64,000 bases of DNA, from assembly GCA_009861545.1 (NCBI GenBank), contig VXME01000040.1, positions 817 through 64,816 of the forward strand, written 5' to 3'. Both the position numbers and the translations under genes were made by a program. Positions 4,779 to 11,274 of this stretch are shown piece by piece (the first letter of the stretch is position 1; each line of letters starts with the position of its first letter). The notes below the pieces were generated by a model. That model made no database searches and was not told the DNA's origin. It saw only the letters and a program-made list of their open reading frames with translations. This DNA is from Acidobacteriota bacterium. GTDB taxonomy: Bacteria; Acidobacteriota; Vicinamibacteria; Vicinamibacterales; UBA8438.

Positions 4779-5888
4779 TCAGTCCACCCAGTCGGCGATG
4801 AAGACGTTCGTGTCCCCCTCGGCCGCGGCGTTGCGGTTGGACGCGAAGATCAGCTTCGTCCCGTCGGGCGAGAACATCGGGAAGCCGTCGAACACGTCGG
4901 TGAACGTGATCTGCTCCAGCCCGGTGCCGTCGAGGTTGATCATGAAGAGGTCGAAGTTGCGGCCGTCCGGGTTGTGCATGTTCGACGAGAAGATGATGCG
5001 CTCGCCGTCGGGGTGCCAGTACGGGGCGAAGCTGGCCCCCCCGGAGTCGGTAACCTGCCGCACGTTGCTCCCGTCGGCGTCCATCACGAAGACCTCGACC
5101 GCGGTGGGCCGCCAGAGGCCCTGGTCGAGCAGCCGCTTGAAGTCGTCGTACTCCGGGCCGTCGGGAATCTCGCGTCCGCGGAAGATGATCTTCGAGCCGT
5201 CGGGCGAGAAGAACGCACCGCCGTCGGGTCCCTGCCGGTGGGTCAGCCGGCGCACGTCCGAGCCGTCGCCGTTCATGGAGTAGATCTCCATGTCGCCGTC
5301 GCGCACGCTCGTGAACACGACGCGGCCGTCCGGCCCGACGGTCGGCTCGGCGTCGTAGCCCGGCTCGTCGGTCAGCCTGGTCAGCCCCGTGCCGTCCGGA
5401 TTCGCACGGAAGATGTCGTAGCTGTCGTAGATGGCCCACACGTAGCCCATCCGGAAGCTCGGCGGCGGCGGGCACTCGGCGCCGCCCAGGTGCGTCGACG
5501 CGTAGATGATCGACTTGCCGTCCGGAAAGAAGTAGCCGCAGGTGGTGCGCCCGCTGCTGGTGCTCACCATCCGCTGGTCCGAGCCGTCCAGGTTCATCGT
5601 GAAGATCTGGTCGCACGGCACCCCTTCGCGGGTGGACTGGAAGATGATCTTCTGCCCGTCGAACGAGAAGTAGGCCTCGGCATTCTCGCCGCCGAAGGTG
5701 AGCTGGCGGATGTTGGCCAGGTGGACCTCGCCGCCGGAGCCTGCCGCCGCCTGCGCGGCACTCTCGACCGCTGGCCGGCTCTCCCCGACCGACTCCCCGG
5801 CGGGCGCGCCGCCCGCGAGCGGGACCGCCAAGCCCGCGGCCAGCGCTACGGCGATCAACAGCGAACGAACGTGGAGATGGTTCTGCAC
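4779..5888 (-). CDS. TolB-like PD40 beta-propeller protein, secreted
   Basis: This is an exported protein of about 369 aa made of repeated WD40-like PD40 blades. The motif 'NxDGSx...LT...PxFSPDGxxIxF' recurs at least six times (for example TGLTRLTDEP, SDVRRLTHRQ, SNVRQVTDSG and TGLEQITFTD). The N-terminus carries a signal peptide ending near PLAGGAPA. I chose GTG 5888 because GGAGAG lies 6 nt upstream and the signal peptide follows directly; an earlier ATG at 5990 would put a non-signal segment in front. It is the last gene of the TRAP operon, 52 bp after the permease, so it may act as a periplasmic accessory or partner-binding protein. It lacks the N-terminal TolB domain, so I would not call it TolB itself. 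Confidence 0.85.
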   Translation of the reverse strand: MQNHLHVRSLLIAVALAAGLAVPLAGGAPAGESVGESRPAVESAAQAAAGSGGEVHLANIRQLTFGGENAEAYFSFDGQKIIFQSTREGVPCDQIFTMNLDGSDQRMVSTSSGRTTCGYFFPDGKSIIYASTHLGGAECPPPPSFRMGYVWAIYDSYDIFRANPDGTGLTRLTDEPGYDAEPTVGPDGRVVFTSVRDGDMEIYSMNGDGSDVRRLTHRQGPDGGAFFSPDGSKIIFRGREIPDGPEYDDFKRLLDQGLWRPTAVEVFVMDADGSNVRQVTDSGGASFAPYWHPDGERIIFSSNMHNPDGRNFDLFMINLDGTGLEQITFTDVFDGFPMFSPDGTKLIFASNRNAAAEGDTNVFIADWVD

Positions 5889-5940
5889 AACGCACTCTCC
5901 CGGAGGAAGCAACCGCGCTCCGGAACAATCCGGATGCGCG

Positions 5941-7836
5941 CTATTGCCGGCCCACGAGCTCCAGCAGCCCGAGGGTGAGCCATGGTACATAAGTGATCAC
6001 GAGCACGCCAATGCCGAGGATCACGAGCAGCGGCACCGACGCGCGGTAGACCTCCAGCAGCGGGCGGTCGAAGCGGTAGGAGGCGAGGAACAGGTTCAGC
6101 CCGACCGGCGGGGTCAGGTAGCCCAGCTCCAGGTTCGCGATGAAGATGATGCCGAGGTGCACCGGATCGATGCCGTACGCGGCCCCGATCGTGCTGATGA
6201 GCGGCACCACGACCACGATGGCCGAGAAGATGTCCATCACGCAGCCGACGATCAGCAGGAACACGTTGAGCGCGAGCAGGAACAGCAGCGGCGACTCGAT
6301 GCGCGCCTGCGTCCACTCCAGCAGCCGGAACGGGATGTCGACATCGACCATGTAGGCGGTGAAGCCCTTGGCCACGCCGAGGATGATCAGCACGCCGCCG
6401 ATCAGCACCACGCACTCGCGGAAGGCCTGCCGCAGGCCCGGCCCGAGCCGGAAGTCGCGGTGGACCAGGCCGGTGACGATCGCGGCGTACAGGGCAGTCA
6501 GGGCGGAGGTCTCGACCAGGGTCGCGCGCCCGCTGAAGAGCGCGCCCAGCACGACCAGCGGCAGAGCCAGCTCCCACTTCGCCGTCCACAGCGCCTCGCG
6601 CGCCTCTCTCCAGGCGAAGTCGTGGCGGCCGGCGCCGGTGACGATCCCCTCGCGCATGCCCCAGGCGGCCACCAGCGCGATGAGCAGCACGCCGGGGAGG
6701 ATGCCCCCGATGAACAGGTTCTCCGGCGCGGTCTGCGCGACGATGGCGTAGAGGATGAGCGGCATCGCCGGCGGCAGCAACAGCCCGAGCGAGCCGGAGG
6801 CGGTGAGCAGGCCGACCGAGAAGCGGTCGCGGTAGCCGTCGGCCAGCAGCGCCGGCAGCAGCAGTCCGCCCAGCGCCAGGATCGTCACCCCGGAGCCGCC
6901 GGTGAAGATAGTGAAGAACGCGCAGACCACAGCGCAGACCACAGCGGTACCGCCCGGCATCCAGCCGACCAGCGCCCGGAACACCTGCAGCAGCCGCCCG
7001 GACGACTGCCCCTGGGCCAGGATGAAACCGGCCAGGGTGAAGAGCGGAATGGCCGGCAGGTGCGGCTCGGTCGCCAGGTCGTAGGCGTACAGCGGCACCG
7101 CCGCCGGGTCGAACGCGTCGACCATGTAGAGGAACACCGCCGCCCCGGCCAGCACCGTGAAGATCGGCGCCCCGGCCAGCGCCGCGAGCACTACGAGGAG
7201 CACCCAGGGCCAACCGGCGCCTCCGGCGAGCACGCACGACGCCTCGTCCACATTCGCACAGGCCGCCCCGGTCCCGCTCAGCCAGATGCCGATCAGCATG
7301 CCGGCCGCCGCGACGGCGCGGGCGCCCCAGCCTCCGGCCCGCCATCCCAACCGCACAGCGATGACGCCGAAGGCGAACGGCAGCACCAACTGGAAGACCC
7401 ACGACGGAATCCCGAGCGCTATCTCGCCACCTATCTCCATCTCGATGACGACGATGTCGATCGCGGACCAGGCGAGCAGCGCCGAGACCGCCGCGCCCAC
7501 CGTCGCGGCGAATCCCTGCGCGACCTGCCGCGCCGCCCCCTCCGGGATGAACGTGGCGGTGGCCAGCGCGATCAGCTTGTTCTGCCGCGCGGCGAGGCCG
7601 GCCCCCAGGAAGCCGACCCACAACGTGAGGTGTTGGACGAAGGGAATCGACCCGGGGATGCCTCCGGTGACAATGGGTCGGACGACGATCTCGGCCAGCG
7701 GCAGGATCGCCATCGCGGCCAGCGCGCCGGCGGCGAGCAGCTCTTCCGACCTGTGGAGGAACCCGAGCGCGGGCGCCGCACGGCGCGCAACGGAAGCAGT
7801 GATCGCGCTCATCCTCACGGTCACACCCGGCATCAT
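5941..7836 (-). CDS. dctQM: TRAP transporter permease, fused small (DctQ) and large (DctM) subunits
   Basis: This inner-membrane permease of a tripartite ATP-independent periplasmic transporter, about 631 aa, works by solute/Na+ or H+ symport. The first 200 or so residues are the DctQ-type four-helix part (LTLWVGFLGAGLAARQNKLI). The rest is the DctM-type part, with landmarks such as FTIFTGGSGVTILALGGLLLP, GLLTASGSLGLLLPPAMPLI and ELGYLTPPVGLNLFLASYRF. The start ATG 7836 overlaps the Fic stop codon (ATGA), which implies translational coupling. ATG 7812 (MSAITAS) is a possible alternative and would remove the overlap. The substrate is unknown; TRAP systems usually import organic acids, and the TatT partner suggests a TPAT-type, possibly hydrophobic, ligand. 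Confidence 0.92.
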   Translation of the reverse strand: MMPGVTVRMSAITASVARRAAPALGFLHRSEELLAAGALAAMAILPLAEIVVRPIVTGGIPGSIPFVQHLTLWVGFLGAGLAARQNKLIALATATFIPEGAARQVAQGFAATVGAAVSALLAWSAIDIVVIEMEIGGEIALGIPSWVFQLVLPFAFGVIAVRLGWRAGGWGARAVAAAGMLIGIWLSGTGAACANVDEASCVLAGGAGWPWVLLVVLAALAGAPIFTVLAGAAVFLYMVDAFDPAAVPLYAYDLATEPHLPAIPLFTLAGFILAQGQSSGRLLQVFRALVGWMPGGTAVVCAVVCAFFTIFTGGSGVTILALGGLLLPALLADGYRDRFSVGLLTASGSLGLLLPPAMPLILYAIVAQTAPENLFIGGILPGVLLIALVAAWGMREGIVTGAGRHDFAWREAREALWTAKWELALPLVVLGALFSGRATLVETSALTALYAAIVTGLVHRDFRLGPGLRQAFRECVVLIGGVLIILGVAKGFTAYMVDVDIPFRLLEWTQARIESPLLFLLALNVFLLIVGCVMDIFSAIVVVVPLISTIGAAYGIDPVHLGIIFIANLELGYLTPPVGLNLFLASYRFDRPLLEVYRASVPLLVILGIGVLVITYVPWLTLGLLELVGRQ

Positions 7837-9296
7837 AGGTCCGCGGTTCGCCACTCGCTCAGCCCGGCGACGATGCACTCCTCGAGCCACGCGCGGAATC
7901 GATCCTCGATGGACTGCGGATCTTCCCGGTAGTTGATCTGAAACACGGCCCGCGCCAGTGCCTTGGCAGGACTGGACTCCCTGTCGTCTCCATCTGTCTG
8001 CACTCGCTGGAAGAAGACGGCGCAACAGGCGAGCACGCCCCGAAACTCGTGACCGATGCCGTGAAACGCAATCAGCAACTGGCTCTGATTCGCGTTCTGA
8101 ATCACGAGTCGGACCCACGCCCGATGCGTTTCCATGTTGGCGAAGTATTCGAGGGCCTTCGCTCCGGCGACGACTTGCTGCCGGAAGTAGTGACTGCGCG
8201 CGTCGTGATCGCTCGTCCCGTCGACGAACACCGTAACGTGATCGAGCAGGGGTTTGACCTCCCTCTCGAAAGTCACCGTCACCTGTCTCAGCCGCTCCCC
8301 CGCGATTCGCCTGAGCTCTTCGGCCCGATCCTTCGCGGTGTTCCACTCCGCGAGCAGTGCGTCGCGTCGATGCTCCAGTTCCCTCCGGGTCGAACGGATC
8401 AGGTCCTCCGCAATGACCAACCTTCCAACGTCGCGAGACAATCCCAGGGCGCGCACGAACTCCCGGCGCTGAATCTCCGAAAAAAAGACGATCAGAGGCT
8501 TCAACTCTCCTTGGTCAGCCGCTTCCAGAGCGTCGAGGTACGTGCCCTTGCTGGCGCTTCGCACCACCAGCGGAAAACGGACCGCCCTCACCAACACCAT
8601 GGTCGCCAGCGATCGAGCCACCCGCCCATTGCCATCCTGAAAGGGATGGATCTGCGTGAAGCGATGATGGAGCCACGCCGCCTCGACTTCCGGCGCAACG
8701 CCGACGTGCTTCCGGTGCATTTCGATCAGGGCATCCATTTCTGATGCAACCTGCTCAGGTGGACAGTACTCGTGGACCTCGCCCGACCGCCCGGTCGGAT
8801 TGTTGGGCCTCTTCTTGTAGGCGCCTCTCAGCAGCGGAATCTGCACCCGGTTACCGAATTGGTCTCTCCCTTCGGCCGTTTCCTGATTCTGCGTCAGCAG
8901 CGCGTGCAGCTCCTTGACATAGCTGGTCGACAACTGTCGCTCGTCCTTGACGAAGGCGAATACATGATCTATCGCAGCCTCGTGATCGCGGATCATGGAT
9001 GCGACCGTCTCCGGCGTCGCACCCGCCCCGTGGGGAATCAGCGCCGCGTCGATGCCGTGCTCGATGAGGACTTCGGTGACGCCCCTGTCGAACTCGTACA
9101 CGCGCTCGATCAGGCCGGTCTCGATCGCCCACTCTCTGCGCAGTTTCTCGTTGAACTTCGGCAGTGCCTCGGAGTCCGCAAGACGTTCACGCTCTTCCTG
9201 CCAGACCTTGGCCAACGCCGCCAGCTCGCCCTGTTCCGGCGACGTCGGTTCGACCTCGTAGTCGCGAATCGGATGCCACTTGTGCCCGCCGCTCAT
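7833..9296 (-). CDS. Fic-domain protein (predicted AMPylase or related nucleotidyl-transferase) inside the TRAP operon
   Basis: This is a 487-aa cytoplasmic Fic protein. The catalytic loop HPFQDGNGRVAR at residues 217-228 matches the active consensus HPFx[DE]GNGRxxR, so transfer of AMP from ATP to a target protein is expected. An N-terminal helix contains TGLIER at 60-65, placed like the inhibitory [S/T]xxxE[G/N] motif but with Arg in place of the final Gly/Asn. Residues 330-487 form a C-terminal domain (FANMETHRAW, FHGIGHEFRGVL) of unknown role. The start ATG 9296 lies 32 bp after dctP; the stop overlaps the permease start (ATGA). Three 60-base rows I counted (from 8041, 8701 and 8881) are 53%, 55% and 58% GC, against 68-70% in rows from the flanking TRAP genes (6361, 9661), which suggests acquisition by transfer. 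No antitoxin gene is adjacent. The target is unknown. Confidence 0.9.
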   Translation of the reverse strand: MSGGHKWHPIRDYEVEPTSPEQGELAALAKVWQEERERLADSEALPKFNEKLRREWAIETGLIERVYEFDRGVTEVLIEHGIDAALIPHGAGATPETVASMIRDHEAAIDHVFAFVKDERQLSTSYVKELHALLTQNQETAEGRDQFGNRVQIPLLRGAYKKRPNNPTGRSGEVHEYCPPEQVASEMDALIEMHRKHVGVAPEVEAAWLHHRFTQIHPFQDGNGRVARSLATMVLVRAVRFPLVVRSASKGTYLDALEAADQGELKPLIVFFSEIQRREFVRALGLSRDVGRLVIAEDLIRSTRRELEHRRDALLAEWNTAKDRAEELRRIAGERLRQVTVTFEREVKPLLDHVTVFVDGTSDHDARSHYFRQQVVAGAKALEYFANMETHRAWVRLVIQNANQSQLLIAFHGIGHEFRGVLACCAVFFQRVQTDGDDRESSPAKALARAVFQINYREDPQSIEDRFRAWLEECIVAGLSEWRTADL

Positions 9297-9328
9297 CTTC
9301 GATCCCCGACGAGGCGCGATCGAATCTT

Positions 9329-10318
9329 TCAGTTGGCCCGGAACTCCGCGCGGGCGGCGACGGCCGCGTCGTAGATGTCCCCCGGCACGCGGCTGCCCCG
9401 CCAGGTCGCGGTCAACCGGTCGGCCACGACGCGGAACTCGGCCGCCTCGGCCTCGCTGACCGCCGACACGGTCAGGCCCCGCTTCTGCATCTCGGCCACC
9501 GCGTCCCGGTCCTGCCGCGGCACCTCGTCGAACAGGAAGTCCTGCATCGCGGCCGCGCCGTCGAGCAGCGCCTCGCGGTCGGCCTCGCCGATTCGGGCCC
9601 AGGCCCGCTCGGTCATCACGGTGGCGCCGAAGACCGGGCTGAGGGGGATGTCGAGCATGTGGGAGGTCTGCCGGTACCACTGGAACACCAGCGCTCCGTA
9701 CGGCGGGCTCGGGTAGGCGTCGATGAGCCCGGTGTTCAGCCCCATGAGGACGTCGGTCAGCTCCAGCGGCACCGGCTCGAAGCCGTTCTCGCGATACCAG
9801 CGCACCATGTCGTCGTCGCCGGCCGACGTAAAGAGCTTCGCCCTCTGCAGGTCGCGCATGTCGCGTATCGGCTGCGCCGAGAAGATGTGCGCCCACCCGC
9901 CGTGCCCCCAGTTGAGCAGGACGAGTCCGCTGTCCGCGAGCGAATCGCGCAGCCGCGGCGTGAGCGCCTCGAGCACGTGCAGCGCCTCTTCGTCGGACTC
10001 GAAGAAGAACGGAATGCCGAACACGTTGAAGTTCTCGTCGACCTCGGTCAGTCCGGGCAGCGTCAGCGCCGCGACCTGCGGGTTGTTCAGCCGCATCCGC
10101 CGGATGATGGTCGATTCGTCGCCGGTGGTCCCCCGCACCTGCAGCCGCACGCGGCCGTCGGTGGACCGCTGCCACGCCGACGCCATCTGCCGCAGCGACC
10201 GGTCCCAGACCGAGTTGGCGGGCAGGATCGTGCCGAGCCGGAGGTTGGTGCGCTGCGCCTCGAGCAGGACGGGGCTCAGCAGCAGCACGACCGCGACGGC
10301 AAGACGGAACGCTCTCAT
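9329..10318 (-). CDS. dctP: TRAP transporter solute-binding protein (DctP family)
   Basis: This periplasmic substrate-binding protein of 329 aa delivers the solute to the DctQM permease. It has a signal peptide (LAVAVVLLLSPVLLEAQ), then the DctP fold starting at RLGTILPANSVWDRSLRQMA. Family features include GVTGDES-like 'GTTGDESTIIRRMR', the central 'MGLNTGLIDAYPSPPYGALVFQWY' region and the arginine-containing strand around PIRDMRDLQRAKLFT. Its ATG overlaps the stop of tatT (ATGA), so TatT and DctP are made together. This matches the TPAT (TPR-associated TRAP) arrangement, in which a TPR lipoprotein binds the solute-binding protein. Confidence 0.92.
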   Translation of the reverse strand: MRAFRLAVAVVLLLSPVLLEAQRTNLRLGTILPANSVWDRSLRQMASAWQRSTDGRVRLQVRGTTGDESTIIRRMRLNNPQVAALTLPGLTEVDENFNVFGIPFFFESDEEALHVLEALTPRLRDSLADSGLVLLNWGHGGWAHIFSAQPIRDMRDLQRAKLFTSAGDDDMVRWYRENGFEPVPLELTDVLMGLNTGLIDAYPSPPYGALVFQWYRQTSHMLDIPLSPVFGATVMTERAWARIGEADREALLDGAAAMQDFLFDEVPRQDRDAVAEMQKRGLTVSAVSEAEAAEFRVVADRLTATWRGSRVPGDIYDAAVAARAEFRAN

Positions 10319-11274
10319 GGTCGGTTCTCCAACTCCTCGTCGAGCTCGTCGAACGGCTCGAAGAACAGATCGTCGATATGATCCAGCAGCACCCGGGCCC
10401 GCTTCTGCGCGATCAGGTTCAGCAGCCGGTTCGCCGGCGCCTCGTCCGGATCGATTGCAATCGCGGTCTCCAGCAGCTCGTGAAACTCCTCCCGGTCCTC
10501 CTCGGCCACCGAGACGCCGGTAGCGAGCGCGACGTAGGGGCCGGCATCCTGTCCGTCGGACAGCTCGACGGCCCGGGCGAAGTGCTCGCGCGCCCGCGCG
10601 TACGATCCGCCCATCGCCTCGCCCACCGACTCGAGCGTGATGAACGCGGAGTGCAGCGCGCCGCGCTCGAAGCCTTCATCGAGTTCGATCGCCCGATCGA
10701 GCAGGGCGCGGGCCGCCGGCAGGTCGGCAACGAGGGCGGGCCGATCCAGTCCGACCGAGATGGCCAGCATCCAGGCGCCGCCGAGGTAGTACAGACTCTC
10801 GACTTCCTCGCGTCCGAAAACCTCTACCGCCGCTTCGGGATCGGTTCGGAGCCGCGCGGTGATGCCGGGATGATCGACCTCGACGTTGCGCAGCCCGTAG
10901 TCCCGCGCCCGCAGGTACATCCGGCGCGCCCGGTCGTTGAGCTCCAGCGCCAGGTCGTAGTCGTCCCACTCCGCAATGGCCGCGTCCGCCTGGAGAAAGG
11001 CGTTGGCGTAGAGCACGAACCCGGTGTTCGCGAACAGCAGCACGTCCTGCCGCGCGGGATCGGCGTCGATGATCGATTCGATCGTCTTGAGCAGGAACGG
11101 GAGCGAGTCGCGGACCAGCTCCGGGTCTTCCTCCGAGAGGTAGACGGCGGGATTGACCAGCGTCGGCAGCACCGCGTTGACCGCCATGGTGCGGAGCGAG
11201 CAACCGGCGAAGACCAGCGCCGCCACGGCGGCGAAGACGATGCGGGCGCCCGATCCGAGTGCTTGTCTCGACAC
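10315..11274 (-). CDS. tatT: TatT-like TPR lipoprotein of a TPAT (TRAP) transporter
   Basis: This is a periplasmic, membrane-anchored helical-repeat protein of 319 aa. A lipobox (VFAGC) ends the signal peptide, followed by an all-helical body that resembles the TatT family known from Treponema pallidum (LVNPAVYLSEEDPELVRDSLPFLLKTIE, then AFLQADAAIAEWDDYDLALELNDRA). In that family a homotrimer of TPR-like subunits docks the TRAP binding protein and may pass hydrophobic ligands. It is the first gene of the operon; the start is GTG 11274, and a TATGAT -10 candidate lies at 11289-11294. Assignment to the TatT component family is by recognition of the sequence pattern plus context; the helical repeats are too divergent to count by eye. 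Confidence 0.85.
   Translation of the reverse strand: MSRQALGSGARIVFAAVAALVFAGCSLRTMAVNAVLPTLVNPAVYLSEEDPELVRDSLPFLLKTIESIIDADPARQDVLLFANTGFVLYANAFLQADAAIAEWDDYDLALELNDRARRMYLRARDYGLRNVEVDHPGITARLRTDPEAAVEVFGREEVESLYYLGGAWMLAISVGLDRPALVADLPAARALLDRAIELDEGFERGALHSAFITLESVGEAMGGSYARAREHFARAVELSDGQDAGPYVALATGVSVAEEDREEFHELLETAIAIDPDEAPANRLLNLIAQKRARVLLDHIDDLFFEPFDELDEELENRP

Follow-up and report, generated by a model that had tools for sequence, protein, structure and literature searches.

A probable insertion and turnover hotspot between the binding-protein and permease genes of an acidobacterial TRAP transporter operon

Introduction

In the TPAT-type TRAP transporter of Treponema pallidum, tatT, tatP and a fused tatQM are encoded together, and the DctP and TatT homologues of this described system are periplasmic lipoproteins (PMC5812351). 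Fic proteins of class II, such as SoFic and FICD, are AMP-transferases whose published inhibitory signature places a Gly or Asn after the glutamate (Goepfert et al. 2013, PMC3667792). Gene turnover between conserved genes has also been described: some hotspots lack mobile elements and are fed by recombination at the core genes on either side (Oliveira et al. 2017, PMC5635113), and in E. coli there are hotspots in which variable defence cargo, PsyrTA included, lies between conserved flanks (PMC10121019).

Here we describe an operon in a 64,000-nucleotide stretch of acidobacterial DNA (the window) that touches on all of these systems. Our results indicate that, within a single clade of one acidobacterial family, the junction between dctP and dctQM in this TPAT-type TRAP operon is probably a hotspot at which genes are repeatedly inserted and turned over. 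Its occupant in the window is likely to be a class II Fic AMP-transferase that stands alone and was acquired horizontally.

Results

A fic gene separates dctP from dctQM

The window sequence and Pfam profile matches gave the gene order tatT-dctP-fic-dctQM-tolB, minus strand throughout, which agrees with the order and single strand of the original prediction, as does the tatT/dctP ATGA overlap, present at 10315/10318. The features are as follows.

10315..11274, minus strand: tatT, TPR component of the TPAT-type TRAP transporter (PF16811 TAtT, E 2.5e-76)
9329..10318, minus strand: dctP (tatP), solute-binding protein, with an ATGA overlap with tatT (PF03480, E 2.4e-33; sequence)
9297..9328, minus strand: spacer of 32 nt from the dctP stop to the fic start, holding a TTCGATC/GATCGAA hairpin
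7833..9296, minus strand: fic, 487 aa, cargo gene (PF02661, E 3.7e-18; aligned motifs; GC3 and CAI)
7813..7832, minus strand: spacer of 20 nt from the fic stop to the conserved dctQM start (clade A dctQM N-terminal comparison)
5941..7812, minus strand: dctQM, fused permease, with the conserved start at 7812 and an in-frame upstream ATG at 7836 (PF06808, E 2.6e-70; PF04290, E 7.2e-14)
4779..5990, minus strand: TolB-like PD40 beta-propeller protein, end of the operon (PF07676, E 7e-46)

With tatT, dctP and a fused dctQM all present, the operon is of the TPAT type and resembles that of T. pallidum (PMC5812351), from which it differs by the cargo gene between binding protein and permease and by the TolB-like gene that follows; dctP and dctQM are adjacent in most relatives and separated by fic here. 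The spacer hairpin, just upstream of the fic start, was absent upstream of the two fic homologues examined.

The composition and distribution of fic support horizontal acquisition

The GC content of fic is 0.621, as compared with 0.705-0.709 in dctQM and dctP, and, of its 24 rows of 60 nt, five do not exceed 58% GC, whereas each neighbour has one such row, in line with the low-GC rows noted originally. When fic was referenced to the 162 predicted genes of its 228-kb contig, its GC3 (0.772) lay at the 8th percentile and its CAI (0.554) at the 7th, so that the codon check confirmed an atypical gene in the tail of the distribution, though not an extreme one. In G002, a member of the same genus with a 94% identical dctP, the dctP|dctQM junction is empty and without fic. 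Close Fic homologues were found in only 6/100 relatives (E<=1e-30) and 4/396 genomes of the phylum (E<=1e-80), the window's own genome being counted in both; no close relatives were found on viral contigs, and matches in plasmids and phages were partial only, with less than 60% identity. The atypical composition, the empty G002 junction and the scarcity of close homologues support the proposal, already made in the original prediction, that fic was acquired horizontally and inserted between the binding-protein and permease genes.

Filled junctions are confined to one clade

We located dctP and dctQM in 162 genomes of the order and measured the gap between them, to a point just inside dctQM, in the 78 pairs that lay on one contig. 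The two genes were separated by at most 325 bp in 74/78 pairs, and the four exceptions (1.5-3.3 kb, all above 800 bp) all fell in clade A, defined by dctP at least about 75% identical (genera g1, g3, g6 and g9). One more clade A genome, G023, carries an insert of at least 2.7 kb that runs into the contig end. The junction was thus filled in 5/10 clade A species and empty in the other five (G002, G005, G008, G011 and G015). With G023 excluded, filled junctions occurred in 4/9 clade A pairs and 0/69 others (p = 9e-5, Fisher; relatives are not independent). The ten clade A genomes are all draft or metagenome-assembled, that of G023 ending inside the slot, and contigs end at or near the operon in three relatives (L142 in G003, L068 in G018 and L041 in G023), which may hide more cargo.

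As a control we compared one pair of genomes, the 228-kb contig and its 203-kb G005 counterpart, for ortholog pairs that share a strand and lie tightly together in one or both genomes: a single pair of 52 was interrupted, namely dctP|dctQM. The locus therefore combines a gene content that differs from relative to relative within constant, conserved flanks with an enrichment over other junctions (1/52 tight pairs in one genome pair, and a small clade sample), as expected of a transfer hotspot. Elsewhere on the same contig, beyond the window (C40 of G000, about 126877-142467 in window-based coordinates), two genes that only 35 bp separate in G005 lie 15.6 kb apart, and the intervening stretch is probably a genomic island.

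The slot holds different cargo, and relics of it, in different species

Whereas the slot of the window's genome (G000) holds fic, that of G001 retains the terminal 108 bp of fic (95% identity), followed by PsyrT and PsyrA (PADLOC, E 7e-282 and 7e-134, respectively), with the final cargo gene overlapping the conserved dctQM start by GTGA. In G021 a VapBC-type pair, composed of PIN and Phd/YefM genes, shares the strand of the operon, and an ArsR/DUF2087 regulator lies with small ORFs on the opposite strand; in G023, the slot contains carbamoyltransferase, SxtJ-like and DUF5989 genes. In G026, dctP is adjoined by a carbamoyltransferase relic of 76 bp (97% identical to the G023 gene) and dctQM by a fused PsyrT/PsyrA remnant, and the opposite strand carries a GDSL-like ORF with a weak match below the cut-off (E 0.016). 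At L042:6000-7930, an internal deletion joins PsyrT residues 670-705 to PsyrA residues 288-329, leaving a clear PsyrTA relic. The GC content was below that of the flanking genes in 5/5 inserts, and the cargo consists mostly of toxin-antitoxin or anti-phage genes.

The order tatT-dctP-X-dctQM, for which a search in related genomes had been suggested, does recur, X being present in five clade species, but X is Fic only here: among the 78 pairs, dctP-fic adjacency is unique to this genome, and the sole trace of fic at this position in any other TRAP operon of the order is the G001 relic. An empty junction such as that of G002 could have marked fic as a one-off insertion, but the slot has been filled repeatedly, with different genes.

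Insertion leaves no recognisable mobile element

The cargo ORFs that we examined include neither an integrase nor a transposase, the window contains no tRNA, and Rfam gave no match. Nor was there a convincing flanking direct repeat; the only candidate, an imperfect match of 11 nt located at both start codons, does not clearly surpass the other repeats listed for this region, which look like chance matches. Within what was examined, the locus thus lacks the marks of an integrase-mediated genomic island. Flank identity profiles showed no visible recombination tract, and insertion by recombination at the flanking core genes is unproven.

We suggest that the junction is tolerant because an insertion at this point disrupts no gene and spares both neighbours, and that the cargo, lacking an integrase of its own, would enter through end-joining or through recombination within the genes on either side. 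Where it lies on the operon strand, it would be co-transcribed with the transporter. A bolder version, in which the operon serves as a docking slot that repeatedly receives co-directional toxin-antitoxin or defence cargo borrowing its transcription, with linkage to a useful transporter helping to keep that cargo, is conceivable and, in our judgement, doubtful.

The history of the slot points to several gains

In a tree of the operon, G002 groups with G000 and leaves G001 outside (FastTree 0.996, IQ-TREE 86). Because fic or its relic occurs in G000 and G001, while G002 groups with G000, the simplest reading is that fic was gained before the G000/G001 split, lost in G002 and almost wholly deleted in G001. 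The PsyrTA genes adjoining dctQM in two genera may similarly represent an older shared insertion. These observations could be extended to a history in which PsyrTA, and later fic, entered the junction once, long ago, in the ancestor of the clade, with many subsequent deletions at a site that was not repeatedly invaded: PsyrTA or its relic adjoins dctQM in both G001 and G026, fic is common to G000 and G001, and the position of the empty G002 beside G000 implies a loss. Such a history is unlikely, since VapBC and the carbamoyltransferase cluster are unrelated to PsyrTA and fic and need separate gains, so that at least two or three gains would be required anyway.

The Fic protein resembles class II AMP-transferases

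The fic product matches the PF02661 Fic domain with 66.6 bits (curated cut-off, 24), and its active-site loop (HPFx(D/E)GNGRxxR) is intact, as had been noted, reading HPFQDGNGRVAR at residues 217-228 of the aligned protein. A class II-like inhibitory motif, TGLIER, occurs at residues 60-65 within the N-terminal segment REWAIETGLIER; Thr60 and Glu64 are invariant across five aligned Fic sequences and have the spacing of the class II motif (S/T)xxxE(G/N). The protein resembles class II enzymes such as SoFic and FICD in its canonical loop and N-terminal S/TxxxE-type motif, and differs from them in about 200 extra C-terminal residues and in the residue after the glutamate (PMC3667792), which is Arg65 here and Gly in three homologues with TGxIEG (TGIIEG, TGLIEG and TGQIEG). 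With Arg in place of Gly or Asn after Glu64, auto-inhibition is not certain. By sequence, 3cuc and FICD are the closest relatives with a solved structure, the match being limited to the Fic core. AlphaFold2 modelled Fic alone with a pLDDT of 40.5, too low for the model to be of use.

We ruled out a class I Fic toxin with its antitoxin: no class I antitoxin gene was found immediately upstream of fic, where the 32 nt that separate it from dctP leave no room for one. Matches to the PADLOC SoFic and PDC-S04 models are at domain level only, and were rejected as proof of a defence role. The whole genome contains ten Fic-domain matches, on ten contigs. Four Fic homologues (40-56% identity) are encoded in unrelated contexts that include neither dctP nor dctQM, as stand-alone genes that are not associated with TRAP operons. 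Judged by its motifs, Fic is best read as cargo, a stand-alone AMP-transferase of class II that inhibits itself. The protein's N-terminal inhibitory helix, with Glu64, would keep it inactive; once released, it would AMPylate a cellular target as a stress or defence module, and would not act on the transporter.

Fic is probably a passenger of the operon

It had been proposed originally that Fic modifies the transporter or its clients, or that fic translation gates permease synthesis through the fic/dctQM ATGA overlap. The shared strand, the tight spacing and the in-frame ATG of dctQM at 7836, which overlaps the fic stop, all fit such a tie. However, in 7/7 other clade A genomes with a readable start, there are exactly 16 residues from the start of dctQM to its first conserved block, which places the start here at the ATG at 7812, 20 nt past the fic stop. 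Because the relatives point to 7812, the overlap is probably fortuitous, and we do not retain it as a signal of translational coupling. A functional tie, whether by AMPylation of a transporter component or client or by gating of the permease, is moreover at odds with the restriction of dctP-fic adjacency to this genome and the G001 relic, with the stand-alone homologues elsewhere, and with the presence of PsyrTA, VapBC or carbamoyltransferase in the same slot of relatives. The DctP and TatT homologues of the described system (PMC5812351) are periplasmic lipoproteins, whereas no obvious signal peptide was seen by eye in Fic, and we found no link between Fic and TRAP transporters in the literature. 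We consider the tie very unlikely, and Fic probably a passenger that is not part of the transporter.

An assembly or binning artefact that wrongly joined cargo to the operon is scarcely credible: all genomes are drafts and several clade contigs (G003, G018, G023) end near the operon, but the inserts come from five separate genomes, in four of which a single contig spans the cargo and its two flanks, and the relics seen in one genome correspond to cargo that is still intact at this junction in another, which argues against assembly error and for turnover.

Discussion

A gene that lies within a conserved operon need not belong to its pathway, and guilt by association would wrongly link Fic, PsyrTA or VapBC to TRAP transport. 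The junction described here appears to be a small, well-bounded hotspot for defence and toxin-antitoxin genes inside an operon, with no evident mobile element, and related species present it in empty, filled and decayed states.

The dctP|dctQM hotspot adds to the already known integrase-less transfer hotspots (Oliveira et al. 2017, PMC5635113), with which it shares a concentration of gene turnover between conserved genes and the lack of a recognisable mobile element. It differs from them in lying within one operon, between two subunit genes of a single transporter, and in holding just one to a few genes. The E. coli defence hotspots (PMC10121019) likewise carry variable defence cargo between conserved flanks; those, however, are islands of at least 10 genes, nearly always on mobile elements, with a median occupancy of 8%, whereas the slot described here spans 1.5-3.3 kb, shows no mobile element and is filled in 5/10 species.
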